Shown piece by piece: positions 1 through 38,369 of a DNA stretch of 64,000 nt (positions within the stretch are counted from its first letter, which is position 1; every line of letters starts with the position of its first letter). The notes beneath the pieces are model-generated. The model worked only from the letters and a program-made list of their open reading frames with translations, was not told the DNA's origin and made no database searches. The position numbers and the translations under genes are program-made. This stretch comes from Aeromicrobium flavum (GTDB taxonomy: Bacteria; Actinomycetota; Actinomycetes; Propionibacteriales; Nocardioidaceae): positions 1 to 64,000 of the forward strand of contig NZ_BJZQ01000007.1 of the NCBI RefSeq assembly GCF_007992115.1, read 5' to 3'.

Positions 1-251
1 CCCGCCATGAAGCCCACCAGAGCCAGCACCGGTCCGAGTACCGGCAGGTCCTCGGCGCCGACGACGGCCATGCCGAGGATGACGACGTTGCCGGTCATGT
101 TGCCGGTGAAGACGCGGTCGAGGCCGAGGTAGCCGACGGCGTCGACGATGCCGGTGGAGAAGGTCAGGGCCAGCATCAGGACGAGGTGCTGGCGGTCGGT
201 GGGGAGGCGTCGGATCACGCCCTGATCGTGCTGCACGGCGGCGACGGGCAC
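1..251 (-). CDS. DUF1275 (YoaK-family) membrane protein, 3' part missing
   Basis: Reading the minus strand from a GTG at 251 gives a hydrophobic N-terminus containing TGIVDAVGYLGLDRVFTGNM followed by TGNVVILG. This is the signature of the YoaK/DUF1275 family, small multi-pass inner-membrane proteins whose substrate is not established. Only about 83 codons lie inside the window; the rest runs off the left edge. A second in-frame GTG at 218 is a possible start and neither has a convincing ribosome binding site. The gene is divergent from the amidohydrolase at 301, and the GlnR-like site described there lies in the shared region. The family call is fairly secure; the start is not. Confidence 0.7.
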   Translation of the reverse strand, partial: MPVAAVQHDQGVIRRLPTDRQHLVLMLALTFSTGIVDAVGYLGLDRVFTGNMTGNVVILGMAVVGAEDLPVLGPVLALVGFMA

Positions 252-294
252 GTCATCGGTGCGTCACGGCGGCGTTACACGACCTCCCTACGCT
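241..294 (+). promoter_or_regulatory. Promoter with GlnR-like box for the fmdA-like operon
   Basis: The -10-like TACGCT lies at 289-294, exactly 6 bases before the GTG at 301, an arrangement typical of leaderless transcripts. Ten bases upstream of it is GTTAC (274-278), with GTCAC (263-267), GTCAT (252-256) and GCGAC (241-245) at 6-base intervals. This resembles the GlnR layout of GTnAC and GAAAC pentamers. The stretch GGCGTTACAC, 8 bases, then TA recurs in near-identical form before uraD. Confidence 0.5.
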
Positions 295-300
295 CAGCGC

Positions 301-1353
301 GTGACCGTCCTGCACCCCGGCGTCGACGTCCCGCACGGGGCGACCTACCTGCCCTCCACCGTCGACCACCTCCGCTGGGGTCGCCTGCCCTGCGCGGCCG
401 ACGACCCCGTCCTCACGGTCGACCCCGGCACCGAGGTCGTGTTCGACACCATCAGCCACGAGGGGATCCTCGAGGACCAGGGCCGCGACCCGCGCTCGTT
501 CTTCTCGCCGTACGACGTCGAGGTGCTCGACGACGCGGTCGCGCTGGCCGCCTCCGACGTCGAGCGGACCTTCGGCGCCGACGGCCCGCACGTGGTGACC
601 GGACCGGTGGCGGTGCGCGGCGCCCGCGTCGGCGACCTGCTGGCCATGACCGTCGTCGGGACGACGCCGCGCGTGCCCTACGGCGTCGTCTCCAACCGAC
701 ACGGGCGCGGAGCACTGCCCGAGGAGTACCCGGCGTACGGCGACGTGATGAGCGTCTTCGCCCGCGTCGAGGACGGCCGGGGCGCGATGTCCTACGGACC
801 CGGCGACGACCGCGCGGTGCGGTTCCCGCTGGCGCCGTTCCTCGGGATCATGGGCGTCGCCGTCGCCGGCGACGAGCGTCCCCACAGCGTCCCGCCCGGC
901 CGCCACGGCGGCAACATCGACATCAACCTGCTGACCGCGGGCTCGACGCTCTACCTGCCCGTGCAGGTGGACGGCGCCCTGGCGTACGTCGGCGACCCGC
1001 ACTTCGCCCAGGGTGACGGCGAGGTCGCGTTGACCGCCATGGAAGCCTCGCTGCGCGCGACGGTGCGGTTCGACGTCGTGGCTCGCGAGGACGCGGTCCG
1101 TGAGTTCGGCGAGGTCGTGGGGCCGCTGGCGCAGACCCGCGACCTCCTCGTGCCGACCGGCATGGATCCCGACCTCGACGTCGCGGTGCAGAACTGCGTG
1201 CGCGCCGCGATCGGGCTGCTGCAGGCGCGGTACGGGATGCACCCGGCGCACGCCTACGCCTACCTGAGCGCCGCCACGGACTTCAACATCAGCCAGGTGG
1301 TCGACCTGGTCAAGGGCGTGCACGCACGCATCCGGATCGAGGACTTCGCGTGA
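301..1353 (+). CDS. fmdA: Acetamidase/formamidase (FmdA/AmdA) family amidohydrolase
   Basis: This 350-residue protein has the layout of the FmdA/AmdA family, zinc-dependent cytosolic enzymes that hydrolyse small amides to acid and ammonia. Typical stretches are FDTISHEGI, GPVAVRGARVGDLL, GGNIDINLL, YLPVQVDGALAYVGDPHFAQ and the C-terminal AYAYLSAATDFNISQVV. The GTG at 301 is preferred over an upstream in-frame codon because it follows TACGCT by 6 bases and removes residues outside the family alignment. Its stop overlaps the start of the amidase (GTGA). As first gene of a ureide cluster it may process a late amide such as oxamate or formamide, which is inference; the true substrate is unknown. 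Confidence 0.82.
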   Translation: MTVLHPGVDVPHGATYLPSTVDHLRWGRLPCAADDPVLTVDPGTEVVFDTISHEGILEDQGRDPRSFFSPYDVEVLDDAVALAASDVERTFGADGPHVVTGPVAVRGARVGDLLAMTVVGTTPRVPYGVVSNRHGRGALPEEYPAYGDVMSVFARVEDGRGAMSYGPGDDRAVRFPLAPFLGIMGVAVAGDERPHSVPPGRHGGNIDINLLTAGSTLYLPVQVDGALAYVGDPHFAQGDGEVALTAMEASLRATVRFDVVAREDAVREFGEVVGPLAQTRDLLVPTGMDPDLDVAVQNCVRAAIGLLQARYGMHPAHAYAYLSAATDFNISQVVDLVKGVHARIRIEDFA

Positions 1354-2870
1354 CCGCGGTGCTGGGCGATCCGGCGCCGGCCGGGCTCCTCGACGCCTTC
1401 TGGGCGTACGAGCGCGCGCTCATGGCCAACGACCTCGAGCAGCTCGACCGGCTGTTCGCCGACCGCCCCGACACGCTGCGCGGCGACGCAGCCGGACTGC
1501 TCGTCGGGCACGAGCAGATCCGCCGGTTCCGCGGCGGGCGCGGGGGAGCGCGACTCCGGACCGTGCTGGACGTGCACGTCCGCGTGCTGGGTGCCGAGCA
1601 TGCCCTCGTCGTGGCGGTCACCGAGCTCGAGCGAGGCGGGCGGGGCCAGCAGACCCAGGTCTGGCAACGCGGTGCCGACGGCTGGCAGGTCACGGCGGCG
1701 CACGTCACCGTGCCGGCCGCCGCACACGACGCGCGGATCTGGCGGGTGGTCGGCGACCCGCTCGTGCGCCCCACCGGCGCCGGTCCGCTCGACGGGCTCG
1801 ACGTCGCGGTCAAGGACCTCTTCGCCGTGGCCGGGCAGCCCGTCGGCGCGGGCAACCCGACGTGGCTCGGCCATGCCCCGGTCGAGACGACCCATGCGTG
1901 GGCCGTGCGGACCCTGCTGGGCGCCGGTGCCGCCGTGCGCGGCATCGCGCGCACCGACGAGTTCGCGTACAGCCTGGCCGGTGCCAACGCGCACCACGGC
2001 TCGCCGCCCAACCCCCGCGCCCCCGGCCGGATCAGCGGGGGTTCGAGCTCGGGTTCGGCGAGCGCCGTCTCCCTTGGGCACGCGGCGATCGGCCTCGGCA
2101 CCGACACCGGTGGGTCGATCCGGGTGCCCGCCGCATACCAAGGCCTCTTCGGCATCCGCACCACGCACGGGGCGATCCCGACAGCGGGGGTACTGCCGCT
2201 GGCGCCGACATTCGACACCGTCGGCTGGCTGACTCGCGAGGCCTCGCTGCTCGCCCGGGTGGGCGACGTGCTGTTGCCGGAGGTGGCGCCCCGCCCCGTG
2301 CGCGAGATCGTGGTGGTCCCCGAGCTGCTCGCCCTGGCCGAGCCGGACGTCGCGGAGGCCGTCGGGGCCTTCGCTGCGAGCGTGGACGCCACAACCGAGT
2401 CGTGGGACCTCGCGCACCTCGAGTCCTGGCGCGAGGCGTTCCGCGTGCACCAGGCCGCCCAGGCCTGGGCAGCCCACGGACCGTGGCTGCGCACGCGCCT
2501 CGACTCGCTCGGACCCGACGTGCGCGCGCGGTTCGAGGCCGCCGCGGAGATCACCTCCGCGCAGGCCGTGGCCGCCGCGATCGGCGTCGCCTCGGCGGGC
2601 CGCACGATCCGCCGCCTCGTGGGCGACCGCGTGGTGGTGCTGCCGTCCGCGTCGTCGGTGGCGCCGTTGCTCGCCGAGGACGTCTCGGCCGTGCGCGACG
2701 CGACGATGCGGCTGACCTGCCTGGCCGGGCTCGGGGGCCTGCCCGCGGTGACCGTTCCCCGCGCGACGGAGGAGGGCCTGCCGTGCGGGGTCGGCCTCGT
2801 GGCCGGTCCGGGCCGCGACCGCGACCTGCTGGGCTTCGTCCGGGACCGGGAAGAACGTTTACGCCGCTGA
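1350..2870 (+). CDS. AtzH/HpxZ-like domain fused to an amidase-signature hydrolase
   Basis: Residues 1-130 look like an AtzH/HpxZ (DUF3225, SnoaL-fold) domain. Residues 140-500 are an amidase-signature hydrolase with the catalytic set visible: Lys155 in VAVKDLF, the serine loop SGGSSSGSA (229-237) and GTDTGGSIR (250-258). In Klebsiella purine catabolism HpxZ and the amidase HpxY are separate neighbouring proteins, and AtzE and AtzH appear in cyanuric acid breakdown; here the two are one chain. No AtzG/HpxX-like small subunit is visible nearby. The gene overlaps the preceding amidohydrolase by 4 bases. Position beside an oxalurate-forming pathway suggests hydrolysis of oxalurate or another N-carbamoyl or amide intermediate, but the substrate is inferred only. 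Confidence 0.83.
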   Translation: MTAVLGDPAPAGLLDAFWAYERALMANDLEQLDRLFADRPDTLRGDAAGLLVGHEQIRRFRGGRGGARLRTVLDVHVRVLGAEHALVVAVTELERGGRGQQTQVWQRGADGWQVTAAHVTVPAAAHDARIWRVVGDPLVRPTGAGPLDGLDVAVKDLFAVAGQPVGAGNPTWLGHAPVETTHAWAVRTLLGAGAAVRGIARTDEFAYSLAGANAHHGSPPNPRAPGRISGGSSSGSASAVSLGHAAIGLGTDTGGSIRVPAAYQGLFGIRTTHGAIPTAGVLPLAPTFDTVGWLTREASLLARVGDVLLPEVAPRPVREIVVVPELLALAEPDVAEAVGAFAASVDATTESWDLAHLESWREAFRVHQAAQAWAAHGPWLRTRLDSLGPDVRARFEAAAEITSAQAVAAAIGVASAGRTIRRLVGDRVVVLPSASSVAPLLAEDVSAVRDATMRLTCLAGLGGLPAVTVPRATEEGLPCGVGLVAGPGRDRDLLGFVRDREERLRR

Positions 2871-2910
2871 AACGATCGTTGCAGCCGGCGTAACACCGCC
2901 CGCCTAGCGT
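2857..2910 (+). promoter_or_regulatory. Dyad operator, GlnR-like box and -10 before uraD
   Basis: The -10-like TAGCGT lies at 2905-2910, 8 bases before the uraD ATG. Ten bases upstream is GTAAC (2890-2894); TTTAC (2858-2862) and GAAAC (2869-2873) stand 6 bases apart further up. The whole stretch 2857-2894 is also a near-perfect dyad centred on CGATCG, with inner arms CTGAAACGAT and ATCGTTGCAG. It may bind GlnR, the RpiR regulator encoded downstream, or both. It overlaps the 3' end of the amidase gene. Confidence 0.55.
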
Positions 2911-2918
2911 CAGGTCGC

Positions 2919-3410
2919 ATGGACATCACGACGTTCGACGCGGCCGACGCGGCCACGGCGTCCGCGCTCGTGCGCACGTGCGCCAAGGTCGATTCGTGGG
3001 TCGCCGCCGTCGTCGCGGGACGGCCGTACGGCACCGTCGACGCGGTGCTCGCGCAGGCCGACGCGCTGGCCTCGGGGTGGGGCGCGGCCGAGGTCGCGGA
3101 GGCGCTGGCCGACCACCCCCGCATCGGCGAGAAGCCGCACGGGGACGGCGCGAGTGCCGAGCTCTCGCGCAGCGAGCAGTCGGGGGTCGACACCGATCGC
3201 GACACCGCGGTGCGCCTCGCCGCGGGCAACCGCCGCTACGAGCGGCGGTTCGACCGCATCTTCCTGGTGCGGGCCGCGGGCCGCAGCGCCGAGGAGATCC
3301 TCCAGCACCTCGAACGCCGCCTCGAGAACGACCCCGAGACCGAGCTGGCGGTCACCGCCGGCCAGCTCCGCGAGATCGCCGCCCTGCGGCTGGAGGGAAT
3401 CCTGTCATGA
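2919..3410 (+). CDS. uraD: 2-oxo-4-hydroxy-4-carboxy-5-ureidoimidazoline decarboxylase
   Basis: OHCU decarboxylase performs the last step from urate to S-allantoin. At 163 residues the protein has family length and carries the active-site HPRIG (His66) and SRSEQSG (83-89, with Glu86 and Gln87). It is the first gene of a tightly packed operon and is followed by HIU hydrolase with a 4-base ATGA overlap, so the two labile intermediates 5-hydroxyisourate and OHCU are handled by translationally coupled enzymes. A promoter with an unusual dyad lies directly upstream. The protein is expected to be cytosolic. Confidence 0.93.
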   Translation: MDITTFDAADAATASALVRTCAKVDSWVAAVVAGRPYGTVDAVLAQADALASGWGAAEVAEALADHPRIGEKPHGDGASAELSRSEQSGVDTDRDTAVRLAAGNRRYERRFDRIFLVRAAGRSAEEILQHLERRLENDPETELAVTAGQLREIAALRLEGILS

Positions 3411-3712
3411 CCACCCTGTCCACCCACGTCCTCGACGCCGCGCGCGGCCGGCCCGCCGCCGGCCTGGTGGTCACGCTCGACGGCACGCTCGCCGCCACCA
3501 CGGACACCGACGGCCGCATCGCCTTCGACGGCGAGATCGGGGCGGGCCCGCACGCCCTCGAGTACGCGACCGGCGCCTGGTTCGACGACCAGTACCGCGA
3601 CACGTTCTTCCCCTCGGCGCACGTGGCGTTCGTGGTCGAGCCGGACCGGCCGCACCTGCACGTGGCCCTGCTGCTGGGCCCGTTCTCCTACACCGCCTAC
3701 CGAGGGAGCTGA
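3407..3712 (+). CDS. uraH: 5-Hydroxyisourate hydrolase (transthyretin-like)
   Basis: This 101-residue protein belongs to the transthyretin-related family that hydrolyses 5-hydroxyisourate to OHCU. The N-terminal LSTHVLD carries the conserved active-site histidine (His7), and the chain ends in HLHVALLLGPFSYTAYRGS, whose terminal YRGS is the family signature. There is no signal peptide, so it acts in the cytosol; active members are homotetramers. The ATG at 3407 overlaps the uraD stop, and the urate oxidase start follows 3 bases after its own stop, giving the order uraD-uraH-urate oxidase. Confidence 0.94.
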   Translation: MTTLSTHVLDAARGRPAAGLVVTLDGTLAATTDTDGRIAFDGEIGAGPHALEYATGAWFDDQYRDTFFPSAHVAFVVEPDRPHLHVALLLGPFSYTAYRGS

Positions 3713-3714
3713 GC

Positions 3715-4620
3715 ATGGCGCAGGGCGACATCATCCTGGGGCCGAACCAGTACGGGAAGGCCGAGTGCCGGCTGGTGCGGGTCACGCGCGACACCCCGGT
3801 CCACCGCATCGAGGACCTCAACGTCACGACCCAGCTGCGCGGCGACTTCACCGACTGCCACGTCGTGGGCGACAACTCCCACGTCGTGGCGACCGACACC
3901 CAGAAGAACACGGTCTACGCGTATGCCCGCGAGCACGGGATCGGGTCGCCCGAGCAGTTCCTGATGACGCTGGGCCGACATTTCGTCGACGACTTCGAGC
4001 AGGTCACCGGCGGGCGCTGGGAGTCGCAGCTGTACGCCTGGGACCGGATCGGGGTCGACGGACGACCGCACGACCACGCGTTCGTCCGCGAGGGCCGCGA
4101 GGTGCGCACCACCCTGGTGCAGAAGGACGGCGACGAGACGTGGGTGCTCGCGGGGTTCACCGACTGCACCGTCCTGAAGTCGACGGGCTCGGAGTTCCAC
4201 GGGTTCCCGCGCGACCGGTACACGACCCTCGTCGAGACCGACGACCGGATCCTGGCCACGTCGGTCACGGCCTGGTGGCGCTACACGTCAGCCGACCTCG
4301 GCGACTGGAACGAGCGGTACGCGGCCATCCGCGACCTCATGCTCGAGACGTTCGCGAGCCTGCACTCGCTGGCGCTGCAGCAGACGATCTTCGCGATGGG
4401 CCGCGCCGTGCTGGAACGGTTCCCCGAGGTCGCCGAGGTCAAGCTCTCGTGCCCGAACAAGCACCACTTCGCGGTCGACCTGACGCCGTTCGGCCTCGAC
4501 AACCCGAACGAGGTCTTCCTCGCCGCCGACCGTCCGTACGGGCTCATCCAGGCCACCGTCCAGCGCGAGGGCGCGCCCGAGGCGCCGCAGGCCTGGGCCA
4601 CCGTGCCCGGGTTCTGCTGA
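3715..4620 (+). CDS. pucL: Urate oxidase (cofactor-free uricase)
   Basis: Urate oxidase converts urate and O2 to 5-hydroxyisourate and H2O2 without a cofactor. The 301-residue protein shows the T-fold hallmarks: TDTQKNTVYAYA (60-71) with the catalytic threonine region, an N-terminal lysine in YGKAECRL, SEFHGFPRDRYTTL in the middle, and the urate-binding signature LSCPNKHHFAVDL near the C-terminus. Length and motif spacing match bacterial uricases. It starts 3 bases after the HIU hydrolase stop and ends 10 bases before allantoinase. The xanthine-dehydrogenase-type enzyme downstream in the same operon would supply its substrate. Confidence 0.95.
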   Translation: MAQGDIILGPNQYGKAECRLVRVTRDTPVHRIEDLNVTTQLRGDFTDCHVVGDNSHVVATDTQKNTVYAYAREHGIGSPEQFLMTLGRHFVDDFEQVTGGRWESQLYAWDRIGVDGRPHDHAFVREGREVRTTLVQKDGDETWVLAGFTDCTVLKSTGSEFHGFPRDRYTTLVETDDRILATSVTAWWRYTSADLGDWNERYAAIRDLMLETFASLHSLALQQTIFAMGRAVLERFPEVAEVKLSCPNKHHFAVDLTPFGLDNPNEVFLAADRPYGLIQATVQREGAPEAPQAWATVPGFC

Positions 4621-4630
4621 GCGGCGACGC

Positions 4631-9259: not shown

Positions 9260-9260
9260 C

Positions 9261-10037: not shown

Positions 10038-12760
10038 CCGTCGTCAACGGAGCCCCGGTCGACGCGCAGCCGTGTCCCGGCCAGTGCCTGCGCACCTTCC
10101 TGCGCGAGCACGGCAACCACGACGTGAAGAAGGGCTGCGACGCGGGCGACTGCGGTGCCTGCAGCGTCCTGCTGGACGGGCGGGCCGTGCACGCGTGCGT
10201 CACCCCGGCCGTGCGGGCCGTGGGTCGCGAGGTCACGACGGCCGCGGGGCTCGGCACCCCCGACGCCCTCCACGAGACCCAGCAGCGCTTCGTCGACGCG
10301 GCCGGCTTCCAGTGCGGGTTCTGCACCGCGGGGATGGTCGTCACCGCCTCGACGCTCGACGAGGGGCTGGAGGGCGAGTCGCTGTGCCGGGCGATGAAGG
10401 GGAACCTGTGCCGGTGCACGGGGTACCGGTCGATCCGCGACGCGCTCGCCGGCACCACCAACGTGGAGGCCGCGGCCGACGGCGCCGCGTTCGGCACCTC
10501 GACGCGCTCGCCGGCTGCCACCCGGATCGTGAGCGGTCAGGAGCCGTACACGCTCGACCTCGCGGCGCCGGAGGGCCTGCTGCACGTCGCGGTGCTGGGC
10601 AGCCCGCACGCCCACGCGCGCATCGTCCGCATCGACGCGAGCCGCGCAGTCGCGGTCCCGGGGGTGCACCTGGTGCTGACGCACCACGACGTGCCGGACG
10701 TGCTCTTCTCGACGGCTCGCCACGAGAACCGGCTCGACGACCCGGACGACACCCGCATCCTCGACCCGGTGCTGCGCTTCCACGGCCAGCGCGTCGCGGT
10801 GGTGGTGGCCGAGTCGGTGGGCCTGGCGCAGGCGGCGCTCGAGCTGGTCGACGTCGAGTACGAGGTGCTGGACGCCGTGTTCGACCCCGACGAGGCGCGG
10901 CAGCCCGGGGCTCCGCTCCTGCACGCCGACAAGGACCCGGTCGCGTCGCGGATCGCCGAGCCGGCGCGCAACGTCGTCGCCCGGCTGCACGACGAGCACG
11001 GCGACGTCGAGGCGGCGCTCGCATCGGCGCACGTCACCGTCTCCGGCACGTGGCGCACGGGCCGGGTGTCGCACGCTCAGCTGGAGACCCACGGCGGCAT
11101 GGGCTGGCTCGACGCCGACGGCACGCTGGTCGTGCGCACGAGCACCCAGGTGCCGTTCCTCGTGCGGGCCGAGCTGGCCCGGATCCTCGGCCTGCCGGCC
11201 GAGCGGGTGCGGGTGCTGGCCGCGCGCGTGGGCGGCGGGTTCGGCGGCAAGCAGGAGCTGCTCGTGGAGGACCTGATCGGTCTGGCCGTCCTGCGCACCG
11301 GTCGCCCGGTGCAGTACGAGCTGAGTCGTGAGGACCAGTTCACGATCGTGCCGTGCCGGCACCCGATGCGGGTCGGCGTCACGCTCGGTGCCGACGCGGA
11401 CGGGCGGCTCGTCGCGATGAGGCTCGACGTCCTCAGCGACACCGGTGCCTACGGCAACCACGCCGTCGGCGTGATGTTCCACGGCTGCCACGAGTCGGTC
11501 GCGCAGTACCGGTGCCCGAACAAGCGCGTCGACGCCGAGGCGGTCTACACCAACCAGCTGCCGTCGGGGGCGTTCCGCGGCTACGGGCTCGGGCAGGTGA
11601 TGTTCGGGATCGAGTCGGCACTCGACGACCTCGCCCACGAGCTCGGGATGGATCCGCTGGAGCTGCGTCGTCGCAACGCCGTCGTGCCCGGCGACCCGTT
11701 CATCGTGACGGCGGACGAGCCGGGCGACCTCGAGTACGGCGGCTCCTACGGCCTCGACCAGTGCCTCGACCTCGTGGACGAGGCGCTGTCCTCGGGCCGG
11801 GGCCTGCCCGCGCCGGCCGGCTGGCCGACGGGCCGCGGCGTCGCGATGGCGATGATCGCCACGATCCCGCCGCGCGGGCACTTCTCGCACGTCACGGTCT
11901 CGGTCGACGCCGACGGCGTCTACACCGCAGCGGTCGGCACCGCGGAGTTCGGTAACGGCACCACGACGGTGCACGTCCAGCTCGTCGCGACCGAGCTGGG
12001 CACGACGCCTGACCGGGTGCGCGTGCGACAGAGCGACACCGCGGCGTCCGGCTACGACACCGGTGCCTTCGGCTCGGCCGGGTCGGTCGTCGCCGGCCAG
12101 GCCGTCCACCTCGCGGCCGAGCGACTGCGCGCCGAGCTGCTGACCCTCGCCGCGCGCGCGGCCGGCGTGGCCACCGGGCACTGCTCGATCCATCGCGACG
12201 GGGTGGTGCTGCCGGACGGGAGGCTGGTGCCGTTCTCCGAGATCGTCCCGGACGGCCTGACCGCCGACGGCAGCCACGACGGCACGCCCCGGTCGGTCGC
12301 GTTCAACGTGCACGGCTTCCGCGTGGCGGTGGACCCCGCGACGGGCGAGGTGCGCGTGCTGCAGTCCGTCCACGCGGCCGACGCCGGGGTCGTCATCAAC
12401 CCCGAGCAGCTGCGCGGCCAGATCGAGGGTGGCGTCGCCCAGGCGGTCGGCTCGGCGCTGCAGGAGGAGATGGTCGTGCGCGAGGGCGAGGTCGCCACCC
12501 GGACGTTCCGCAACTATCGCGTGCCGCAGATGGCCGACGTCCCGCCCACCGAGGTGCTGTTCGCCGAGACGTTCGATGCACTCGGGCCCCGCGGCGCGAA
12601 GTCGATGAGCGAGGCGCCCTACAACCCCGTGGCTCCGGCGCTCGCCAACGCGATCACGGACGCCCTCGGTGTCAGACCGACGGAGCTCCCGATGACGCGG
12701 GACCGGGTGTGGCGGCTGGCCCGGCGGGTCAGCGGTGGATCGGTCCCGGCACCCGGCTGA
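10034..12760 (+). CDS. Xanthine-dehydrogenase-type catalytic subunit, [2Fe-2S] and molybdopterin domains fused
   Basis: The 908-residue chain joins two parts. Residues 1-150 are a two-cluster iron-sulfur domain: CDAGDCGAC (Cys35, 40, 43 and Cys55) for the plant-ferredoxin cluster, CGFC (94-97) and CRC (126-128) for the second. Residues 165-900 are the molybdenum-cofactor domain with [30 protein letters not shown] and the probable catalytic glutamate in [13 protein letters not shown]. The order resembles D. gigas aldehyde oxidoreductase and E. coli XdhD, with FAD on a separate gene here. Cluster context points to xanthine or hypoxanthine to urate, although another N-heterocycle is possible. 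The 3' end overlaps convergent xdhC by 32 bases. Confidence 0.88.
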
Positions 12761-13658
12761 GCGGCAGGCCGGTGGCGCCGTGCCGGACGGCGAGGATCTC
12801 GGCCACGATCGCGACCGCGGTGTGCTCGGGCGCCGAGCCGCCCAGGTCGAGGCCGATGGGCGAGCGCAGGCACGCCAGCTCGTCGGTCGTGGCGCCGAGG
12901 GCGGCCAGTGCCTCGACGCGACGCTCGTGCGTGGTGCGCGAGCCCATCGCGCCGACGTAGCCGGCGCCCCCACGCAGCGCCGCGAGGATCGCCGGGGTGT
13001 CGTGTGCGAGGTCGTGGCCCAGGACGCAGATCGCGTCGTCGTCGCTCCAGTTCCGGGCGGCGATCCACCGCGCGGCCCGCTCGACGACGACCGCGGTGGC
13101 GTCGGGGAACCTCTCCTTCGCGGCGAAGGTCTCACGGTGGTCGACGACCGTCACGGCGAACCCGGCCCGGGCCGCCAGCGCGCACAGGGCCACCCCGAAC
13201 TCGACCGCACCGACGACCACGAGCCGTCGCGGCCGCCGGACCGTGAGGGTGACGACGGGATCGGTGCACGGGCGGCCGTCGGCACCCAGGGCCAGGGTGG
13301 CGTCCAGCCCCGCCGCCGCACGCTCGACCTGGTGCCAGGCGGGCTCGTCGAGCACGGCGACGTCGCTGATCAGCACGTCGATCGTGCCCCCGCACATGAG
13401 TCCCGGCTCGAGCCAGTCGCCGACGCCGTACCGGCACATGCAGGCCGGGCCGCCGGCAAGGACCCGCTCGCACTCTGCCACGAGGTCGGCCTCGACGCAG
13501 CCGCCCGAGATGCTGCCGGCGACCCGGCCCGTGTCGTCGACGGCGAGGGCCGCACCCACCGCGCGAGGGGCGCTGCCGTCGACCGCGACCAGCGTCGCCA
13601 CCGCGACGCGACGGCCCTCGGCCGCCCAGGTGCGCAGGGTGGTGGCGAGCTCCAGCAT
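12729..13658 (-). CDS. xdhC: XdhC-family molybdenum cofactor insertion/sulfuration protein
   Basis: XdhC proteins bind molybdenum cofactor, support its sulfuration and insert it into xanthine dehydrogenases. The 309-residue protein has the N-terminal XdhC domain ([32 protein letters not shown]) and a C-terminal Rossmann domain ([39 protein letters not shown]). It is transcribed against the dehydrogenase operon, with a tail-to-tail overlap of 32 bases. Its promoter (TAGTGT 6 bases before the ATG) shares a regulatory region with guanine deaminase on the other strand. Confidence 0.92.
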
Positions 13659-13664
13659 GCGGCG

Positions 13665-13734
13665 ACACTAGGGAACGCGTGTTTCACGGGAGGGACAGCG
13701 ACGAAACGGACAGGAAACACCTGCTTGCGACGAT
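13665..13734. promoter_or_regulatory. Divergent xdhC/guaD promoter region with shared GlnR-like box
   Basis: Four pentamers at strict 6-base spacing are visible on the plus strand: GTTTC (13681-13685), GGGAC (13692-13696), GAAAC (13703-13707) and GAAAC (13714-13718). The last lies 10 bases before GACGAT (13729-13734, guaD -10). On the minus strand the complement of 13681-13685 reads GAAAC and lies 10 bases before TAGTGT (complement of 13665-13670), which is 6 bases before the xdhC ATG. The outer GTGTTTC and GAAACAC form an inverted repeat. This is the cleanest GlnR-like array in the window. Confidence 0.6.
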
Positions 13735-13765: not shown

Positions 13766-14242
13766 ATGACGCGACAGCACGACACCCGGTGGTTGACGAT
13801 GGCGATCGACCTCGCCGTCGAGAACGTCGGCGCCGGCGGTGGGCCGTTCGGTGCGGTGCTCGTCCGGGGCGAGGAGCTGGTCGCCACGGGGCAGAACCGC
13901 GTCACCCGCGACCTCGACCCGAGCGCCCACGCCGAGGTCGTGGCGATCCGCACGGCGTGTCAGGCGATCGGCGACTTCTCCCTGGCTGGACTGACGCTGT
14001 ACACCTCGTGCGAGCCGTGCCCGATGTGCCTGGCCACGTCGCTGTGGGCGCGCGTCGACAGGGTCGTCTACGCCGCCGACCGCGACGACGCCGCGCGCGG
14101 GGGCTTCGACGACCGTGAGTTCTACGAGCTGTTCGCCCGCGACCGCGCGACGTGGGCGACGCTCGTCGAGGCCGCGCGCACGGACGACGCGGACCGACCC
14201 TTCGACGCCTGGCTGACGCACGCCGACCGCCTCGCGTACTGA
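13766..14242 (+). CDS. guaD: Guanine deaminase (CDA-fold nucleoside deaminase family)
   Basis: This 158-residue protein has the zinc motifs of the cytidine-deaminase fold: HAEV (zinc ligand His55, general acid/base Glu57) and SCEPCPMC (Cys85, Cys88). Length and the C-terminal FYELF region resemble Bacillus GuaD-type guanine deaminases, which convert guanine to xanthine and ammonia. Other nucleoside deaminases or TadA share the fold, so the guanine call leans on context beside the xanthine dehydrogenase. The ATG at 13766 is chosen because AGGAGG lies 8 bases upstream; an upstream in-frame start would cover the regulatory array. Confidence 0.82.
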   Translation: MTRQHDTRWLTMAIDLAVENVGAGGGPFGAVLVRGEELVATGQNRVTRDLDPSAHAEVVAIRTACQAIGDFSLAGLTLYTSCEPCPMCLATSLWARVDRVVYAADRDDAARGGFDDREFYELFARDRATWATLVEAARTDDADRPFDAWLTHADRLAY

Positions 14243-14253: not shown

Positions 14254-14307
14254 TTAACGCCCGCGTCATCTGCCGCGTCGGGTGATGAAACGAACCGTCC
14301 ATAACGT
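14254..14307 (+). promoter_or_regulatory. Promoter with GlnR-like box for the NMT1-type ABC operon
   Basis: GAAAC (14287-14291) is followed after exactly 10 bases by TAACGT (14302-14307), a TANNNT -10. TTAAC at 14254-14258 is in register, 33 bases upstream of GAAAC. The leader would be about 60 bases and contains a GCAGCC/GGCTGC stem (14336-14351) just before the GGGAG ribosome site. No TPP-riboswitch signature was recognised in it. Confidence 0.45.
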
Positions 14308-14371
14308 CACGGCCTGTAACGGGGGTTTCGTCGCCGCAGCCGTCCGGCTGCTCGGACTAGGGAGTTCACAC

Positions 14372-15433
14372 ATGAAGTTGTCGTTCCGTCGAGGTCATGC
14401 TGCGCGGTTCGCCGTCGTGCTGTCGGCCGCAGCACTCACCCTGGCCGCGTGCGGCTCGGACTCCGAGGAGGACGCAGGGTCCGGCTCCGGCGAGAAGGAC
14501 TTCGGCGCGCTGACCGTCCAGCTCTCGTGGGTCAAGAACGCGGAGTTCGCCGGTGAGTTCATGGCCGACTCGAAGGGCTACTTCGCCGATGCCGGCTTCT
14601 CCAGCGTGAAGCTGAACGCGGGTCCCGGCGCCACCGAGAACCTGGTCGCCTCGGGCAAGGCGGACTTCGGCCTGACGAACGCCGTCACCGCCGCGCAGGT
14701 CATCACCGAGGAGGACGCGCCGCTGAAGATCGTCGGCACGACCTACCAGAAGAACCCCTTCACGATCCTGTCGCGCAAGGACACCGGCGACATCGCGACG
14801 CCGGCCGACCTGAAGGGCAAGAAGATCGGCGTCCAGGCCGGCGGCAACGAGATCCTGTTCAAGGCGCTGCTGGCCGCGAACGACATCGAGGAGTCCGAGG
14901 TCACGATCGTCCCGGTCGAGTACGACCCGGCCCCGTTGGTCAACAAGGAGGTCGACGGCTTCGTCGCCTACCTGACGAACGAGTCGATCCTGGTCGCGAG
15001 CCAGGGCATCGAGGTGACGAACCTGCCGATGGCCGACAACGGCCTGCCGTTCGTGGCGGAGTCGATCATCGCCACCGAGCAGACCATCAAGGACAAGCCC
15101 GACATGGTCAAGGCGTTCCTCGAGGCCGAGATCAAGGGCTGGAAGGACGCCTGCGCCGACCTCGAGGCGGGCGCGAAGCTGGCCGTCGACGAGTACGGCA
15201 AGGACCTCAAGCTCGACCTCGAGAAGGAGATCGAGCAGAACACCGTGCAGTGCGAGGACCTGATCAACACCGACGAGACCGCCGAGAACGGGATCTTCAC
15301 GATCAGCGACGAGCTGCTGGCCGAGAACCTGAAGTCGCTCGCCGGTGCCGGCATCGACGTCGAGGCCGACGACGTGTTCGACCTGTCGCTGCTCGACGAG
15401 CTGTACGAGGAGAAGCCCGACCTCAAGGGCTGA
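14372..15433 (+). CDS. NMT1/THI5-like ABC transporter substrate-binding lipoprotein
   Basis: The protein starts with a lipoprotein signal peptide ending in the lipobox LAAC (Cys27). It continues with [20 protein letters not shown], typical of NMT1/THI5-like binding proteins that capture pyrimidine precursors, riboflavin, nucleobase-like or sulfonate ligands. The mature protein of about 325 residues would be anchored outside the membrane. The ATPase and two permeases follow directly, making a complete importer. Location between guanine deaminase and a MocA-like gene, with a GlnR-like promoter, suggests import of a purine or ureide; a thiamine-precursor ligand cannot be excluded. ATG 14372 is preferred because the signal peptide starts there. 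Confidence 0.86.
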
Positions 15434-20434: not shown

Positions 20435-20827
20435 TCAGACCAGCCGGAACCAGATGCAGACGGTCGTCTCGTCGTCCTCGACGGGGGTGCCGAAGGACGA
20501 CCAGAACTCCCGGTGACCCGCGCGCCACTGGTCGATGTCGGCGTCACCCTCGCCCTCGGCCGCGGCGAACTCCCACGGGACCTCGCCGAACGGGTGCTGC
20601 TCGACCCGGGTGACCTCGATCGTGGCGATCTGCCGGCCGTCGTCGTCCAGCAGGGCGAGGCGCTCGCCGACGTGCTCGAACTCCTCGTCCTCTTCGCGGT
20701 ACTCGCGCAGGAGTCCGGCGGTCGCGCGCTTCTGCCCGGCCAGCACGAGGCCGTTGAGGCGGGCGCGCATCTCACCGGGTGCGCCGAGTTCGAGTGAGCG
20801 CAGTTCTCCCACGCGCGGCCAGGTCAT
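20435..20827 (-). CDS. ASCH-domain protein
   Basis: This 130-residue protein has an ASCH (PUA-like beta-barrel) domain, recognised from MRARLNGLVLAGQKRATAGLL near the N-terminus (GxKxxT-type loop) and IATIEVTRVEQHPFGEVPWEFAAAEGEG in the second half. ASCH proteins are thought to bind RNA or modified nucleotides, and some act as amidohydrolases on acylated cytidines; no specific role can be assigned. The start at 20827 is favoured over a longer reading because TAGCGT sits 7 bases upstream on the minus strand. The gene is divergent from the TIGR03086 gene at 20887. Confidence 0.78.
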   Translation of the reverse strand: MTWPRVGELRSLELGAPGEMRARLNGLVLAGQKRATAGLLREYREEDEEFEHVGERLALLDDDGRQIATIEVTRVEQHPFGEVPWEFAAAEGEGDADIDQWRAGHREFWSSFGTPVEDDETTVCIWFRLV

Positions 20828-20886
20828 GGTGGCGACGCTACCCGCCAGAACTTTCGCCGACCATCGTCTCGGGTCAGACTGCCACC

Positions 20887-31460: not shown

Positions 31461-31509
31461 GAGGCGACGGACGACGCGGAGCGCGCGCGGGAGCCGGGAG
31501 GCCTGCGGA

Positions 31510-31515
31510 TAACCT
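31510..31515 (+). promoter_or_regulatory. Leaderless-type -10 before leuS
   Basis: TAACCT is followed by exactly 6 bases and the GTG at 31522, with no Shine-Dalgarno sequence. No GlnR-like pentamer stands at the 10-base position. Confidence 0.45.
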
Positions 31516-31521
31516 TGACCG

Positions 31522-34335
31522 GTGAGCAACCAGGACAGTGTGGAGGGCGCGGCACCGGAGGGTGCGGCACATCGGTACACCAGTGAGTACGCCGGCCGGA
31601 TCGAGACGGCGTGGCAGGACCGCTGGGAGGCCGAGGGCACGTTCGAGGCGCCCAACCCCGTCGGCGAGCTCGCCACCGACGACCCGCGGCACAACGCGCA
31701 CGGCTCCAAGTACTTCCTGATGGACATGTTCCCGTACCCCTCCGGTGCGGGCCTGCACGTCGGCCACCCGCTGGGCTACATCGCCACCGACGTCGTCGGC
31801 CGCTTCCGCCGGATGCAGGGCGACAACGTGCTGCACGCGCTGGGCTACGACGCCTTCGGCCTGCCGGCCGAGATCTACGCCGTCCAGACCGGCCGCCACC
31901 CGCGCGAGACGACGCTCGAGAACATCGCCAACATGCGGCGTCAGCTGCGCCGGCTGGGCCTGGCCCACGACAACCGCCGCTCCTTCGCCACGATCGATCC
32001 CGAGTTCATGCGCTGGACGCAGTGGATCTTCCTGCAGATCTTCAACTCCTGGTACGACGCCGACCAGGGCAAGGCGCGCCCCATCGCCGAGCTGATCGAC
32101 GAGCTGGGCACCGACGACCCCGCGGTCATCGACCAGTACCGGCTGGCCTACATCAGCGAGTCGCCGGTCAACTGGTGCCCGGGCCTGGGCACCGTGCTGG
32201 CGAACGAGGAGGTCACGGCCGACAACCGCAGCGAGCGCGGCAACTTCCCGGTCTTCAAGCGCAACCTGCGCCAGTGGCAGATGCGGATCACGGCGTACGC
32301 CGACCGGCTGATCGACGACCTCGAGCGGGTCGACTGGCCCACGCCGGTCAAGATGATGCAGCGCAACTGGATCGGCCGCTCGCACGGCGCGCAGGTGCGC
32401 TTCGAGTCCGCCGCCGGGCCCGTCGAGGTCTTCACGACGCGTCCCGACACGCTGTTCGGCGCCACGTACATGGTGCTGGCGCCCGAGCACCCGCTGGTCG
32501 ACGACCTGGCCGCCGAGACGTGGCCCGACGCCGTCGACGAGCGCTGGACCGGGGGCGCTCCCGACCCGATCACCGCGATCGCGCAGTACCGCCGCACGGC
32601 CGCCGCGAAGACCGACGTCGAGCGCCAGGAGAACAAGGAGAAGACCGGCGTCTTCACCGGCTCCTTCGCCACCAACCCCGTCAACGGCGAGGCCGTCCCC
32701 GTCTTCATCGCCGACTACGTCCTCATGGGCTACGGCACGGGCGCCATCATGGCCGTGCCCGGGCACGACGAGCGCGACTTCGAGTTCGCCACCGAGCTGA
32801 GCCTGCGCATCGTCCCGGTCGTGCAGTCGCCCGAGGACGAGGTCCTGCCCTGGACCGGCGACGGCGTCGCGATCAACTCCGACAACACCGACACGTTCGG
32901 CGACGAGGGCGTCAGCCTCGACGGCCTGGGTGTCGACGAGGCCAAGAGCGCGATCATCGCGTGGCTGGAGCAGCGCGGGCTGGGCGAGGGCACCACGACG
33001 TACCGGCTGCGCGACTGGCTGTTCAGCCGGCAGCGCTACTGGGGCGAGCCCTTCCCGATCGTCTACGACGAGGACGGCCGCGCCATCGCGCTGCCCGACT
33101 CGATGCTGCCGGTCGAGCTGCCCGAGGTGCCCGACTACTCGCCCAAGACGTTCGAGCCCGACGACGCCACGAGCATGCCCGAGCCGCCACTGGCCCGCGT
33201 GCCCGAGTGGGTCGAGGTCGAGCTCGACCTCGGCGACGGCCCGAAGCGCTACCGCCGCGAGACCAACACGATGCCGAACTGGGCCGGCTCCAGCTGGTAC
33301 GAGCTGCGGTACACCGACCCGACCAACACCGACGTCCTGACCGATCCGCAGAACGAGCGCTACTGGCTCGGCCCGAAGGCCCCCGGCGAGGCCGGTGGCG
33401 TCGACCTCTACGTCGGCGGCGTCGAGCACGCGGTGCTGCACCTGCTGTACGCGCGCTTCTGGCACAAGGTGCTGTTCGACCTGGGCCACATCAGCTCCGA
33501 GGAGCCGTTCCAGCGGCTCATCAACCAGGGCTACATCCAGGCGTACGCGTTCACCGACGAGCGCGGCGTCTACGTCCCGGCCGACGAGGTCGAGGAGCGC
33601 GACGGCCAGTGGTTCTTCGAGGGCAGGCCGGTCAACCGTGAGTACGGGAAGATGGGCAAGAGCCTGAAGAACTCCGTCACGCCCGACGACATGTACGACG
33701 CCTACGGCGCCGACACCCTGCGCGTGTACGAGATGTCGATGGGCCCGCTCGAGCAGTCGCGGCCGTGGGACACGCGCGCCGTCGTCGGCTCGCAGCGGTT
33801 CCTGCAGCGGGTCTGGCGTCTCGTCGTCGACGAGGAGTCCGGTGAGGTCGTCGTCGACGACAGCGAGCCCGACACCGCCACGCTGCGCGCCCTGCACCGG
33901 GCGATCGACGGCGTCACCGAGGACATGGGCGAGCTGCGCTTCAACACCGCGATCGCCAAGCTGATCGAGCTGACCAACCACCTGACCAAGGAGTCGGTCC
34001 GCTCGCGCTCGGTCATCGAGTCGCTCGTGCTGATGCTCGCGCCGGTGGCGCCCCACGTCGCCGAGGAGCTGTGGTCGCGGCTGGGCCACGAGCACACGCT
34101 GACCTACGAGTCGTGGCCGGTGGCCGACCCGCAGTACCTCGTCGAGGACCTCGTCACCTGCGTCGTGCAGATCCAGGGCAAGGTCCGGGGCAAGGTCGAG
34201 GTCCCCGCCGACATCAGCGACGAGGACCTCACCGCCCTCGCGCTGGCCGAGCCCAACGTGGCCCGCACGATCGGCGACCGCGAGGTCCGCAAGGTGATCG
34301 TGCGCGCGCCGAAGCTGGTTAGCGTCGTCGTCTGA
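31522..34335 (+). CDS. leuS: Leucyl-tRNA synthetase
   Basis: LeuRS charges tRNA-Leu. The 937-residue protein has the class I HIGH-type motif in [15 protein letters not shown] (about residue 72 onward), the CP1 editing domain with [20 protein letters not shown] and [19 protein letters not shown], and the KMSKS motif as KMGKS (710-714) followed by [12 protein letters not shown]-terminal TGS-like tail ends [13 protein letters not shown] and beyond. Length is normal for actinobacterial LeuRS. The GTG start follows a leaderless-type -10. It is an essential cytosolic enzyme. Confidence 0.97.
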
Positions 34336-34362
34336 GGACCCTCGCCGTGCCACGATGAGGGC

Positions 34363-35253
34363 GTGGCCGCAGTCGAGTTGGAGGGGGTCGTCAAGACCTT
34401 CGGAGCCGTACGCGCCCTGGACGGTGTCGACCTGACGGTCGAGGCCGGTGAGGTCCACGGCTTCCTCGGGCCCAACGGGGCCGGCAAGTCGACCGCGATC
34501 CGCGTGCTGCTGGGGCTGCTGAAGGCCGACTCCGGCCGGGCCACCCTGCTCGGCGGGGACCCGTGGGGCGAGGCGGCGGAGCTGCATCGGCGGATCGCGT
34601 ACGTGCCCGGCGACGTGGCCCTGTGGCCCGGGCTCACCGGCGGCGAGGTCATCGACGTCCTGGCCCGCCTGCGGGGAGGCCTGGACGAGCGGCGCCGCGC
34701 CGAGACGATCGAGCGGTTCGAGTTCGATCCGACGAAGAAGTGCCGCACCTACTCCAAGGGGAACCGGCAGAAGGTCGCGCTCATCGCCGCGTTGGCCAGC
34801 CGGGCCGAGCTCTACCTGCTCGACGAGCCGACCTCGGGACTCGACCCCCTCATGGAGAAGGAGTTCCAGCAGGCTGTGCTCGAGCTGAAGGACGAGGGCG
34901 CGACCGTGCTGCTGAGCTCGCACATCCTGGCGGAGGCCGAGGCGCTGTCCGACCGGATCAGCATCATCCGGGCGGGACAGGTGGTGCAGAGCGGCTCGCT
35001 GGCCGAGTTGCGCCACCTCACTCGCACGACGGTCATCGCCGAGACCGCCCGGTCCGCCGCGCACCTGGCCGAGGTCGACGGGGTCCACCACCCGCGGTTC
35101 GTCGGCGCGCGGATCACCTTCGACGTCGACTCCGTCCACCTCGACGCGGCCGTGCAGGCGCTCGCACCGCTCGGGGTGCGCTCCCTCTCCGTCCACCCGC
35201 CGACGCTGGAGGAGCTCTTCCTGCGGCAGTACGGCGAGGAGGCGACGGCGTGA
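34363..35253 (+). CDS. ABC exporter ATP-binding protein (DrrA-like)
   Basis: The 296-residue ATPase has Walker [10 protein letters not shown], a signature region [15 protein letters not shown] in place of the canonical LSGGQ, Walker [15 protein letters not shown] and switch [10 protein letters not shown], typical of DrrA/CcmA-like drug or polyketide exporters. The SKGN variant signature is common in this branch. It overlaps the permease gene by 4 bases, forming a two-gene export system. CACGAT stands 6 bases before the GTG start. Confidence 0.9.
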
Positions 35254-36848
35254 GCTCGCCCTTCACGGGGACCAGGCACCTCGTCCGGCTCATCCTGCGC
35301 CGCGACCGCTGGATCCTGCCCGCGTGGATCGTCGGTCTCGGGGGAACGATCACCGCCAGTGCGCTGGCCGTCCCATCGTTCTACGACACGCCCGAGAAGG
35401 TCGCCGGGTACGCGGGCGCGGTCGGGACGAGTCCCGTCAGCCATCTGATGTCCGGTCGTCAGGCGGGCATCGACACCTTGGGTGGCATCGTCGCCAACGA
35501 GATCTCGCAGGTGGCCCAGCTGGGCATCTGCCTCATGGTGATGTTCCTGGTGGTGCGGCACACCCGGGCCGAGGAGGAGAGCGGCCGGGCCGAGCTGGTC
35601 CGTTCGACCGTGGTGGGTCGTCACGCCGCCACCCTCGCGGCGCTGCTTTACGGCGTCGCTGCGGCGCTCGTGATCGGCCTCGTCACGACCGTCTCGATGC
35701 TCGCGGTGGATCTGGGCCTCCTCGGCAGCGTGACCTACGGTGCCGGGCTGACCCTGCTCGGCCTCTGCTACGTCGCGATCACGCTCGTCGCCGTGCAGGT
35801 CGCGACGTCGGCCCGTGAGGCGCTCGGGCTCGCGGGCGCCGCGATCGCCGTCGGGTACCTGGTCCGGGGCGTGGGCGCGATGCAGGACAACGCACTCGTG
35901 TGGGTGTCGCCGTTCGGCTGGGCGCAACGGATGGACGCGTTCGGTGCCGAGCAGTGGTGGCCGGCGGTGCCGGTCGTGCTGCTGACGGCGGCGCTGCTCG
36001 GCGTGGCCGGCTGGCTGACGGTCCATCGCGATTTCGCGGGCGGCGTGCTTCCGGCGCGCCCCGGCCGGCCGCGTGCCTCGCGCTTCCTCGGCACACCGCT
36101 GGGCCTGACCCTGCGTCTCCAACGGGGCCTGCTCATCGGGTGGGCCGTCGGCCTGACGGCGCTCGGACTGCTCTACGGCGCGGTGATGCCGACCATTCCC
36201 GATCTGGTGGCGTCGAACCCGGACATCGCCGAGGTCATCGGCGCGTCCCCGGACGTCGAGCAGGCGCTGACCGACGCGTTCCTGCGGTACATCTTCTTGT
36301 TCATGGCCGCGGCCTCCTGCGGCTTCGTGGTCACCTCCGTGCTCCGCCTGCGTGCCGAGGAGGAGTCCGGTCGCGCCGAGCTGGTGCTGGCCACCGGAGT
36401 CAGGAGGACGTCGTGGATGGCCGCGGCCGCGGTGGTCGCCTTCGCCGGTGTCCTGCTGCTGACGCTGTTGATGGGTCTGGGCCTGGCCGTGGGCTACGCG
36501 GTCGGGACGGGGGAGTGGGACCGGGTCGTCGAGCACGTGGGCGGCCAGACGAGCTACCTGCCGGGGGTGCTCGTCGTGGCCGCCCTTGCGGTCGCCGTCG
36601 TCGGGCTGTGGCCGCGCCGGTCCCTCCTGGCGTGGGCCGTGGTGGCGTTCGTCGTCGTCCAGGTCCTCCTGGGAGAGACGCTCCGGCTGCCGAGCTGGGT
36701 CGACGCCGTCTCGCCGTTCTCGCACCTGCCGGAGGTGCCGGTCGAGGACTTCGACCCGGTTCCCGGCCTGGTCGAGCTCGCCCTGGCGGCCGGCGCGGTC
36801 GGGTGGGGCCTGTGGGCCTTCCGGCGCCGCGACGTCACGACGCCGTGA
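35250..36848 (+). CDS. ABC exporter permease (polyketide-antibiotic exporter-like)
   Basis: The 532-residue protein has about twelve hydrophobic segments arranged as two halves, each carrying the same [12 protein letters not shown] stretch (near residues 105 and 367), evidence of an ancient internal duplication. This is the permease type annotated in actinobacteria as exporter of polyketide antibiotics, paired with DrrA-like ATPases. The GTG start lies in a GTGA overlap with the ATPase gene. No biosynthetic cluster or resistance regulator is adjacent, so the exported compound is unknown. Confidence 0.85.
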
Positions 36849-36858
36849 CCCGCGCGTC

Positions 36859-38184
36859 TCAGACCCGGGCCGCGTGGGTGTCGGTGCCGGGTCGGGCGTA
36901 GACGCCCCAGGCCACGACGAGCATCACCGCGTAGACCGCGGCGAAGGCCCACAGCCCGCCCGTGATGCCCAGCTCGGCGAACGTCCGCGGCACGAAGAAC
37001 GAGCCCAGGGCTCCGACGGCGCCGGCGATGCCGATGCAGCCGGCGGCGGCGCGGTGCCCGCGGGCCCGTCCCTCGACGTCGCGCACGCCGATCTGGAAGG
37101 CGATCGGGATCATCCGGTAGACCGACCCGTTGCCGATGCCCGCGGCGCCGAAGAGCAGCAGGAACAGGCCCAGGAAGAGCCCGAATCCGGCGTCGTCGAG
37201 GGTCAGCACGAGCCCGACGACACCGACGCCCATCGCGAGGTACGAGGCCATCGTCACGCGGGTGCCGCCGAGGCGGTCGGCCAGCGCGCCGCCGAACGGG
37301 CGCATCAGCGCGCCGGTGGCGGCGCCGAGGAACGCGACGGCGATCGGCACGTCGGGGTGCATGGCCTTCATCAGCGTCGGGAACGTCAGCGAGAAGCCTA
37401 GGAACGAGCCGAACGTGCCGATGTACAGGAACGAGATCACCCAGGTGTGGTGGTTGTGGACGGCCAGGGCGTAGCTGCGCAGGTCGGACGCCGCGTTGGA
37501 GAGGTTGTTCATGAGCAGGAGGGCCGCCAGCGCCGACAGGATCGCCGCGGGGATGAAGATCAGGCCGGCGCGCTCCAGCGCGATGCCGGCACCGGAGGTG
37601 ATGATCAGGGGCACGACCAGCTGCACGATGCCGGTGCCCAGGTTGCCGCCGGCGGCGTTGATGCCGAGCGCCTTGCCCTTCTCGCGCTGCGGGTAGAAGA
37701 ACGAGATGTTGACCATCGAGGAGGCGAAGTTGCCGCCGCCGAAGCCGGCCAGCGACGCGATCAGCAGCATCACGGCGAACGGGGTGGAGGGGTCGCTCAC
37801 GGCCCAGGCCAGGCCCGCGGCCGGGATGAGCAGCAGCAGCGAGGAGATGACGGTCCAGTTGCGGCCGCCGAACACCGGGACCATGAACGTGTAGAGGATC
37901 CGCATGGCCGCACCCGTCAGGCCGGGCAGCGCGATCAGCCAGTACAGCTGGTCGCTCGTGTAGTCGAAGCCGGCGTCGCCGAGGTTCGGGACGACGATGC
38001 TCCACACGCCGAGCATCATGAAGCCGAAGAACTCGGCGAAGACGGACACGACGAGGTTCCGGCGGGCGATGGCCCGGCCCGGGCCCTCCCACTGGGACTC
38101 GTCCTCGGGGTTCCAGCCGTCGATCCAGCGCCCCTTGCGGTGGACGAGGCCGGTCGAGAGGTCGGTGTTGTTCACGGTGGTCAT
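36859..38184 (-). CDS. narK: NarK-family nitrate/nitrite transporter
   Basis: This 441-residue MFS protein has about twelve membrane segments and the nitrate-signature regions of NarK/NasA carriers: GFGGGNFASSMVNISFFYP in the fifth helix and GAAGIGNGSVYRMIP in the eleventh, both glycine-rich. It imports nitrate or exchanges it with nitrite. The ATG at 38184 is chosen because AGGAG lies 7 bases upstream; a longer frame would cover the promoter. It is divergent from the nitrite reductase operon. Confidence 0.93.
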   Translation of the reverse strand: MTTVNNTDLSTGLVHRKGRWIDGWNPEDESQWEGPGRAIARRNLVVSVFAEFFGFMMLGVWSIVVPNLGDAGFDYTSDQLYWLIALPGLTGAAMRILYTFMVPVFGGRNWTVISSLLLLIPAAGLAWAVSDPSTPFAVMLLIASLAGFGGGNFASSMVNISFFYPQREKGKALGINAAGGNLGTGIVQLVVPLIITSGAGIALERAGLIFIPAAILSALAALLLMNNLSNAASDLRSYALAVHNHHTWVISFLYIGTFGSFLGFSLTFPTLMKAMHPDVPIAVAFLGAATGALMRPFGGALADRLGGTRVTMASYLAMGVGVVGLVLTLDDAGFGLFLGLFLLLFGAAGIGNGSVYRMIPIAFQIGVRDVEGRARGHRAAAGCIGIAGAVGALGSFFVPRTFAELGITGGLWAFAAVYAVMLVVAWGVYARPGTDTHAARV

Positions 38185-38221
38185 CAGCGCTCCTGACGCA
38201 GGGCGGGGTCGGATGCCGACG

Positions 38222-38276
38222 ACGGTAGGAACGGCGCGTTTCACCCGACCGCGCCTGCCGGTAACCGGGCGGGAAC
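38222..38276 (-). promoter_or_regulatory. narK promoter with GlnR-like box
   Basis: On the minus strand GAAAC (complement of 38238-38242) lies 10 bases before TACCGT (complement of 38222-38227). Upstream are GTTAC (complement of 38261-38265) and GTTCC (complement of 38272-38276), 6 bases apart, though the inner spacing is one base long. The leader to the narK ATG is about 30 bases and includes AGGAG. Confidence 0.55.
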
Positions 38277-38326
38277 GTTCTGCTCACAGCGGCCACGGTG
38301 CGGTCGTGACAGGGATGTCATCGTCC

Positions 38327-38369
38327 GTTACATGCATTGTTCGGGCCGGAAACCTGGGCCGACGACGCT
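38327..38369 (+). promoter_or_regulatory. nirB promoter with GlnR-like box
   Basis: GTTAC (38327-38331), TGTTC (38338-38342) and GAAAC (38349-38353) stand at 6-base intervals. The last is 10 bases before GACGCT (38364-38369), which is 6 bases before the nirB ATG. A separate palindrome TGACAGGGATGTCA (38307-38320) is a possible NnaR site, which is speculative. Confidence 0.5.

Follow-up and report, generated by a model that had tools for sequence, protein, structure and literature searches.

Does one regulator join the purine-breakdown and nitrate genes that lie within a single stretch of the Aeromicrobium flavum genome, and, if so, through what kind of promoter? The stretch, referred to below as the window, comprises positions 1 to 64,000 of contig NZ_BJZQ01000007.1 (genome 3.09 Mb, 31 contigs), and an initial annotation had proposed that seven of its promoters share a GlnR-type pentamer, G(A/T)(A/T)AC (GWWAC), placed ten bases before a -10-like hexamer. 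All seven pairs were confirmed in the sequence at their positions, with a gap (N10) of exactly 10 bases in 7 out of 7, and, judged from the DNA, these would be promoters activated by GlnR under nitrogen limitation, a reading to which we assign a probability of roughly 0.88. The seven promoters are the following:

252..294, plus strand, fmdA promoter: GTCAT 252, GTCAC 263 and GTTAC 274-278 at 11-base steps, N10, TACGCT 289-294
2858..2910, plus strand, uraD promoter: TTTAC 2858, GAAAC 2869, GTAAC 2890-2894, N10, TAGCGT 2905-2910
13665..13685, minus strand, xdhC promoter: GAAAC (complement of 13681-13685), N10, TAGTGT, with the ATG 6 bases on
13703..13734, plus strand, guaD promoter: GAAAC 13703, GAAAC 13714-13718, N10, GACGAT 13729-13734
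14254..14307, plus strand, ABC importer promoter: TTAAC 14254, GTCAT 14265, GAAAC 14287-14291, N10, TAACGT 14302-14307
38222..38265, minus strand, narK promoter: GTTAC 38265-38261, GAAAC 38242-38238 (23 apart), N10, TACCGT 38227-38222
38327..38369, plus strand, nirB promoter: GTTAC 38327, GAAAC 38349-38353 (22 apart), N10, GACGCT 38364-38369

On both strands of the window GWWAC-N10-KANNNT occurs seven times, each time at one of these promoters; since only those matches exist, all remaining promoters of the window lack the pattern, including the controls chosen in the initial annotation (leuS, degV, holA, comEA, hemW, arcA and a glutamate-synthase-like gene). The narrower form, GWWAC-N10-TANNNT, accounts for five of the matches (fmdA, uraD, xdhC, ABC importer and narK), and guaD and nirB join the set once GANNNT hexamers are allowed. 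In 300 first-order Markov shuffles of the window the narrower form reached a mean of 0.083 and a maximum of 1, which places the five matches far above chance, and the wider form a mean of 1.0 and a maximum of 5, which places the seven moderately above it. When the distance between GWWAC and TANNNT was varied from 0 to 30, five pairs were found at 10, one at 2, one at 27 and none elsewhere.

Further pentamers are present upstream of the last box at distances of 11 and 22 bases (fmdA, guaD), 22 and 33 (ABC importer), 22 (nirB), 21 and 32 (uraD) and 23 (narK), and no further one was found upstream of the single xdhC box. The 6-base steps between pentamers (an 11-base period, 'n6') proposed earlier for several promoters are therefore strict in four of the seven (fmdA, guaD, ABC importer and nirB) and slip by one base in uraD and narK; the register was read from positions, and pentamers out of register also occur, for example at 27 in fmdA, 16 in guaD and 32 in nirB.

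An independent test was provided by the promoters of glnA. The loci were drawn from 30 of 40 matching congeneric genomes (the window's own included) and from 30 of 69 matching genomes of the class, two of which were already in the genus set; exclusion of four of the 28 new loci with the upstream region cut or shifted by contig ends (L224, L225, L237 and L240) left 24. The slot that completes the array stood 10 bases before a TANNNT hexamer in 30/30 congeneric and 22/24 class-wide loci, and the remaining two, same-family promoters (L219 and L220), had a spacing of 11. The last box itself read GAAAC, GAAAT, GTAAC, GCAAC, GCAAT and similar. The glnA of the window's genome, a canonical GlnR target, carries the pattern as GTAAC-n6-GTAAC-n17-GAAAC-N10-TAGCCT. 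The architecture is the ordinary one of a GlnR activator and matches the classic promoter of glutamine synthetase. A third-slot GNNAY pentamer in register was found in 22 of the 30 congeneric and 22 of the 24 class-wide loci, and with this slot filled the published a-b-a-b order is obtained (review PMC10704036).

A box-plus-hexamer matrix was built from 44 glnA sites outside the window's genome, its training set being limited to sites already with N10-TANNNT, as in the other glnA matrix. Among 127,960 positions it ranked narK 1, ABC importer 2, xdhC 3, uraD 4, nirB 6, guaD 10 and fmdA 15. The order was similar with a matrix trained on 52 nirB sites from an earlier set, compiled before gene starts were re-placed (narK 1, ABC importer 2, xdhC 3, uraD 5, nirB 7, guaD 10, fmdA 49). 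The full four-box glnA matrix, ranking 127,894 positions, placed xdhC at 1, guaD at 2, fmdA at 3, the ABC importer at 5, uraD at 6, narK at 23 and nirB at 38.

The spacing is also maintained at orthologous promoters in other congeneric genomes, with GNNAY-N10-TANNNT kept before fmdA in 6/6 and before the ABC importer in 7/7, and GWWAC-N10-KANNNT before guaD in 4/5. For nirB, the best 80 of 153 relatives were compared: GWWAC-N10-TANNNT was present in 47 loci and a relaxed box, G(A/C/T)NA(C/T), at the same spacing in 65. At no other spacing from 2 to 25 did the relaxed box occur in more than 6 loci (6 at 21, 5 at 15), and at 9 and 11-14 it was found in none. Many of these relatives have TANNNT at the position where the nirB of the window has GANNNT. 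A single universal TANNNT -10 was considered for guaD and rejected, its relatives keeping GACGAT or CACGAT.

Over the whole genome GWWAC-N10-TANNNT matched 14 times, compared to 3 matches of a reversed control pattern, and the window, which represents 2% of the genome, holds five of the 14. The other places are glnA (L001), one inside a 306-amino-acid open reading frame (L002), two that are perhaps nitrogen-related (L005 and L014) and five that look unrelated or unclear (L003, L004, L011, L012 and L013). This list is the outcome, for the TANNNT form, of the genome-wide frequency check suggested in the initial annotation; the GANNNT form is considered below. L005 (G000:C6:171946) precedes a luciferase-like monooxygenase gene with GTGAC-n6-GTTAC-n17-GTAAC-N10-TACGTT, as read by eye, with boxes 22 and 33 bases upstream and a MocR-like gene (below cut-offs) adjoining, and it may be a further GlnR target. 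L014 precedes a Peripla_BP_6 binding-protein gene and is itself preceded by a response-regulator gene, presumably pdtaR-like. At L013 (G000:C13:44071) GGAAC-n6-GAAAC-N10-TAGGCT ends seven bases before a metallo-beta-lactamase-fold gene, next to a partial uvrA. By eye, L003, L004, L011 and L012 are unrelated, with GATAC palindromes or another operator; at L012 (G000:C8:7082) TTTCGAAAGAA-type inverted repeats, probably the operator of another regulator, overlap the pattern.

Nine Trans_reg_C matches were found in the genome. One of these proteins (L015), encoded outside the window, is, by its sequence, a close GlnR homologue: it scored far below the NCBIfam MtrA cut-off, and its best PDB matches were 8hih (E 2.8e-83) and 8hig, which we take to be GlnR entries, with a further match to 4o1h, labelled 'Transcription regulator GlnR' (E 8.5e-24). 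The protein L017 is MtrA (NCBIfam MtrAB_MtrA, 334.9 bits against a cut-off of 300). Two elements that had not been part of the initial annotation lie at the nitrate genes:

38283..38310, no strand assigned, between narK and nirB: NnaR-like palindrome CTCAC-N18-GTGAC (motif from PMC6277429)
41284..42426, plus strand, downstream of nirB: nnaR-like regulator gene, a HemD domain (HEM4) fused to a C-terminal Trans_reg_C DNA-binding domain

The palindrome is 40 bases away from the narK box and 38 from the nirB box, and it departs from c-t-C-A-C-a/c-N16-t/g-G-T-G-a-g at two positions (an inner flanking C for T/G and a last C for G). Because the loose pattern recurs in the window at 20771 and 52466, it is not specific by itself. 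A CTCAC-N17-19-GTGA(G/C) palindrome was present in 48/80 nirB loci, and in 48 out of these 48 a GlnR box followed it at 39 (26 loci) or 40 bases (22 loci). Similar spacing of NnaR and GlnR motifs and leaderless-type transcripts have been reported by Antczak et al. (PMC6277429), so that this part of the result is a confirmation rather than a discovery. At the five purine and amide promoters the palindrome pattern was not found. Elsewhere in the window, a minus-strand match at 20855, inside a predicted coding stretch, took rank 5 with the first and rank 4 with the second box-plus-hexamer matrix, and the CTCAC...GTGAG palindrome at 20771-20798 lies nearby, in an order unlike that at nirB.

The genes behind the seven promoters are listed below; xanthine-dehydrogenase-type subunits and a uricase were also recognized in the window (Pfam/NCBIfam).

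301..1353, plus strand, fmdA-like amidase gene: Pfam FmdA_AmdA, NCBIfam FmdA below cut-off; GTG start 6 bases past the hexamer (leaderless-type)
2919..3410, plus strand, uraD, OHCU decarboxylase: TIGR03180 above cut-off; uricase open reading frame next
12729..13658, minus strand, xdhC-like gene: Pfam XdhC_CoxI and XdhC_C
13766..14242, plus strand, deaminase gene, guanine deaminase by context: Pfam dCMP_cyt_deam_1, NCBIfam TadA only, below cut-off
14372..15433, plus strand, NMT1/SsuA-type substrate-binding protein of an ABC importer: NCBIfam SsuA_fam below cut-off
36859..38184, minus strand, narK-type nitrate/nitrite transporter: Pfam MFS_1, NCBIfam NarK/NarU models below cut-off
38376..40940, plus strand, nirB, nitrite reductase large subunit: TIGR02374 above cut-off; ATG 6 bases past the hexamer

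Among the matches listed, the closest relatives of NirB are from Aeromicrobium (77%). In four of the seven genes the hexamer ends 6-8 bases before the start codon, which would agree with leaderless transcription. A conserved TGTAACGGGGGTTTCGTCG-like stretch was observed at 14315-14333, in the importer leader, and the seven congeneric genomes listed for this gene all keep its ACGGGGGTTTC core.

A number of observations weigh against GlnR control of all seven promoters. The GANNNT form is near background genome-wide (36 matches compared to 19 of the reversed control; three of the places were assigned to genes, namely those at guaD, at nirB and upstream of an ammonium transporter), and therefore the pattern alone does not make a convincing case for guaD and nirB: the five TANNNT sites stand out by pattern, and the other two depend on the further evidence. 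Three ammonium transporter genes have upstream pentamers and no N10-TANNNT, one of them having N10-GAGGTT. Among the congeners, GNNAY-N10-TANNNT is kept before uraD in 9/13 other genomes (14 rows, the window's own omitted), three of the four exceptions having GTCAT-N9-TACGTT, and before xdhC in 4/9; the TANNNT form was found before guaD in 0/5. The nirB pattern was absent in 15/80 loci, namely in all 11 Kribbella, three Brachybacterium and one Cellulomonas. Among the 25 NCBIfam models listed for the GlnR homologue no model, for GlnR or otherwise, scored above its cut-off. In Mycobacterium smegmatis, gel-shift assays using GlnR by itself were unsuccessful for nirB, narK and msmeg_1293 (PMC4222082). 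Two more points of this kind concern MtrA, the gene of which is present in the genome and the motif of which is nearly identical to that of GlnR (PMC6277429).

The last two points would allow MtrA to be the main binder of the boxes, repressing the genes under nitrogen-rich conditions with or without GlnR, and MtrA has been described to compete with GlnR at nitrogen genes in some instances, GlnR being decisive (PMC10704036). Boxes that stand 10 bases ahead of the -10, as at glnA, nirB and the purine genes, are suited to the activation of nitrogen genes, and we consider MtrA in the leading role unlikely; the two explanations are compatible with each other, and MtrA may read the boxes as well. 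Control of narK and nirB by NnaR alone, with incidental GlnR-like pentamers, appears very improbable. It would be in line with the nnaR-like gene, the palindrome and the M. smegmatis gel shifts at msmeg_0427 and msmeg_0433, in which NnaR binding was avid and GlnR binding modest (PMC6277429), but the pentamer-N10-hexamer arrangement is found in 65/80 nirB loci, every palindrome-bearing locus (48/48) has the box 39-40 bases on, and the five promoters outside the nitrate genes have no recognizable palindrome. Least credible of all is a chance origin, with GC-rich DNA yielding the short AT-containing pentamers and the loose hexamers at random, which might be entertained for the GANNNT class taken alone; the shuffles, the genome control, the spacing scan, the cross-species conservation and the matrix ranking speak against it, and for the five TANNNT sites they do so already. 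An extracytoplasmic sigma factor with GAAAC as its -35 was rejected, since ten bases fall short of the gap in a -35/-10 pair and the 11-base array would be left unexplained.

The preferred reading, activation by GlnR, agrees with what is known from other actinomycetes. Transcript levels of uricase, a purine permease, nirBD and nnaR in M. smegmatis are GlnR-dependent (PMC4222082) and its purine genes are induced by nitrogen limitation (PMC4617892), so the linkage of purine and nitrate genes under GlnR was already known. Together with the GlnR homologue, the glnA pattern, the matrix ranks and the conserved spacing, this literature upholds the single nitrogen regulon across purine breakdown and nitrate genes that had been proposed initially; it is well supported, and it was to be expected. 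The tandem gTnAc-n6-GaAAc pentamers are those of the GlnR regulon of Streptomyces coelicolor (glnA, amtB, nirB), M. smegmatis and Amycolatopsis mediterranei (nas operon), and the targets glnA, nirB, narK and nnaR, with purine genes in M. smegmatis, are likewise shared; the uraD layout equals a1-b1-N16-b2 of the A. mediterranei nas promoter (PMC10704036). What differs is the organism and the gene order, with fmdA, xdhC, guaD and the ABC importer clustered here about 24 kb from narK-nirB. The nitrate promoters resemble the NnaR-GlnR promoters of mycobacteria and Streptomyces in the CTCAC-type palindrome near a GlnR box, the similar spacing and the leaderless-type starts (PMC6277429); unlike there, one palindrome is located between two divergent promoters. 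Repeats in direct orientation, spaced by 11 or 22 bases and with the last one at a constant short distance to the -10, are also a feature of Streptomyces antibiotic regulatory protein (SARP) activators such as AfsR, which, however, belong to another protein family and for which the distance is given as 8 bases (PMC10936776). A statement of the 10-base distance between box and hexamer was not found in the literature searched, which is no proof of its absence.

Under nitrogen limitation, GlnR, a member of the OmpR/PhoB family, would bind the G(T/A)nAC pentamers head-to-tail with an 11-base period, and on the gene-proximal pentamer one of its DNA-binding domains would occupy the usual -35/spacer region. 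With a start about 7 bases past the hexamer, the last box would cover positions -27 to -23 or thereabouts, in the interval that separates the usual -35 from the -10, and GlnR so placed may set the RNA polymerase on a -10 that apparently lacks a good -35. The GlnR-polymerase complex contains four head-to-tail DNA-binding domains and a receiver tetramer (PMC10704036), an architecture which a rigid box distance would fit. In this way the ABC importer, amide hydrolysis and the degradation of guanine, xanthine and urate would be switched on at the same time as nitrate uptake and the reduction of nitrite, and at narK/nirB an NnaR dimer on the single central palindrome probably helps both sides.

We lean slightly towards a bolder version, a rigid ruler valid throughout the Actinomycetia, in which exactly 10 bases (in a few cases 11) separate the last box from the -10, and the NnaR palindrome, where it helps, precedes the box by 39-40 bases. 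According to it, the single palindrome of the window would be read both ways to fire narK and nirB, GlnR would replace the -35 outright, and the ruler alone would suffice to predict, in genomes not yet studied, transcription starts as well as members of the regulon. For Aeromicrobium, a little-studied genus, the present results provide a prediction of the nitrogen-starvation regulon at the level of start sites, and the rule of a 10-base gap between box and -10 may distinguish activating GlnR sites from the loose pentamers in which GC-rich genomes abound.

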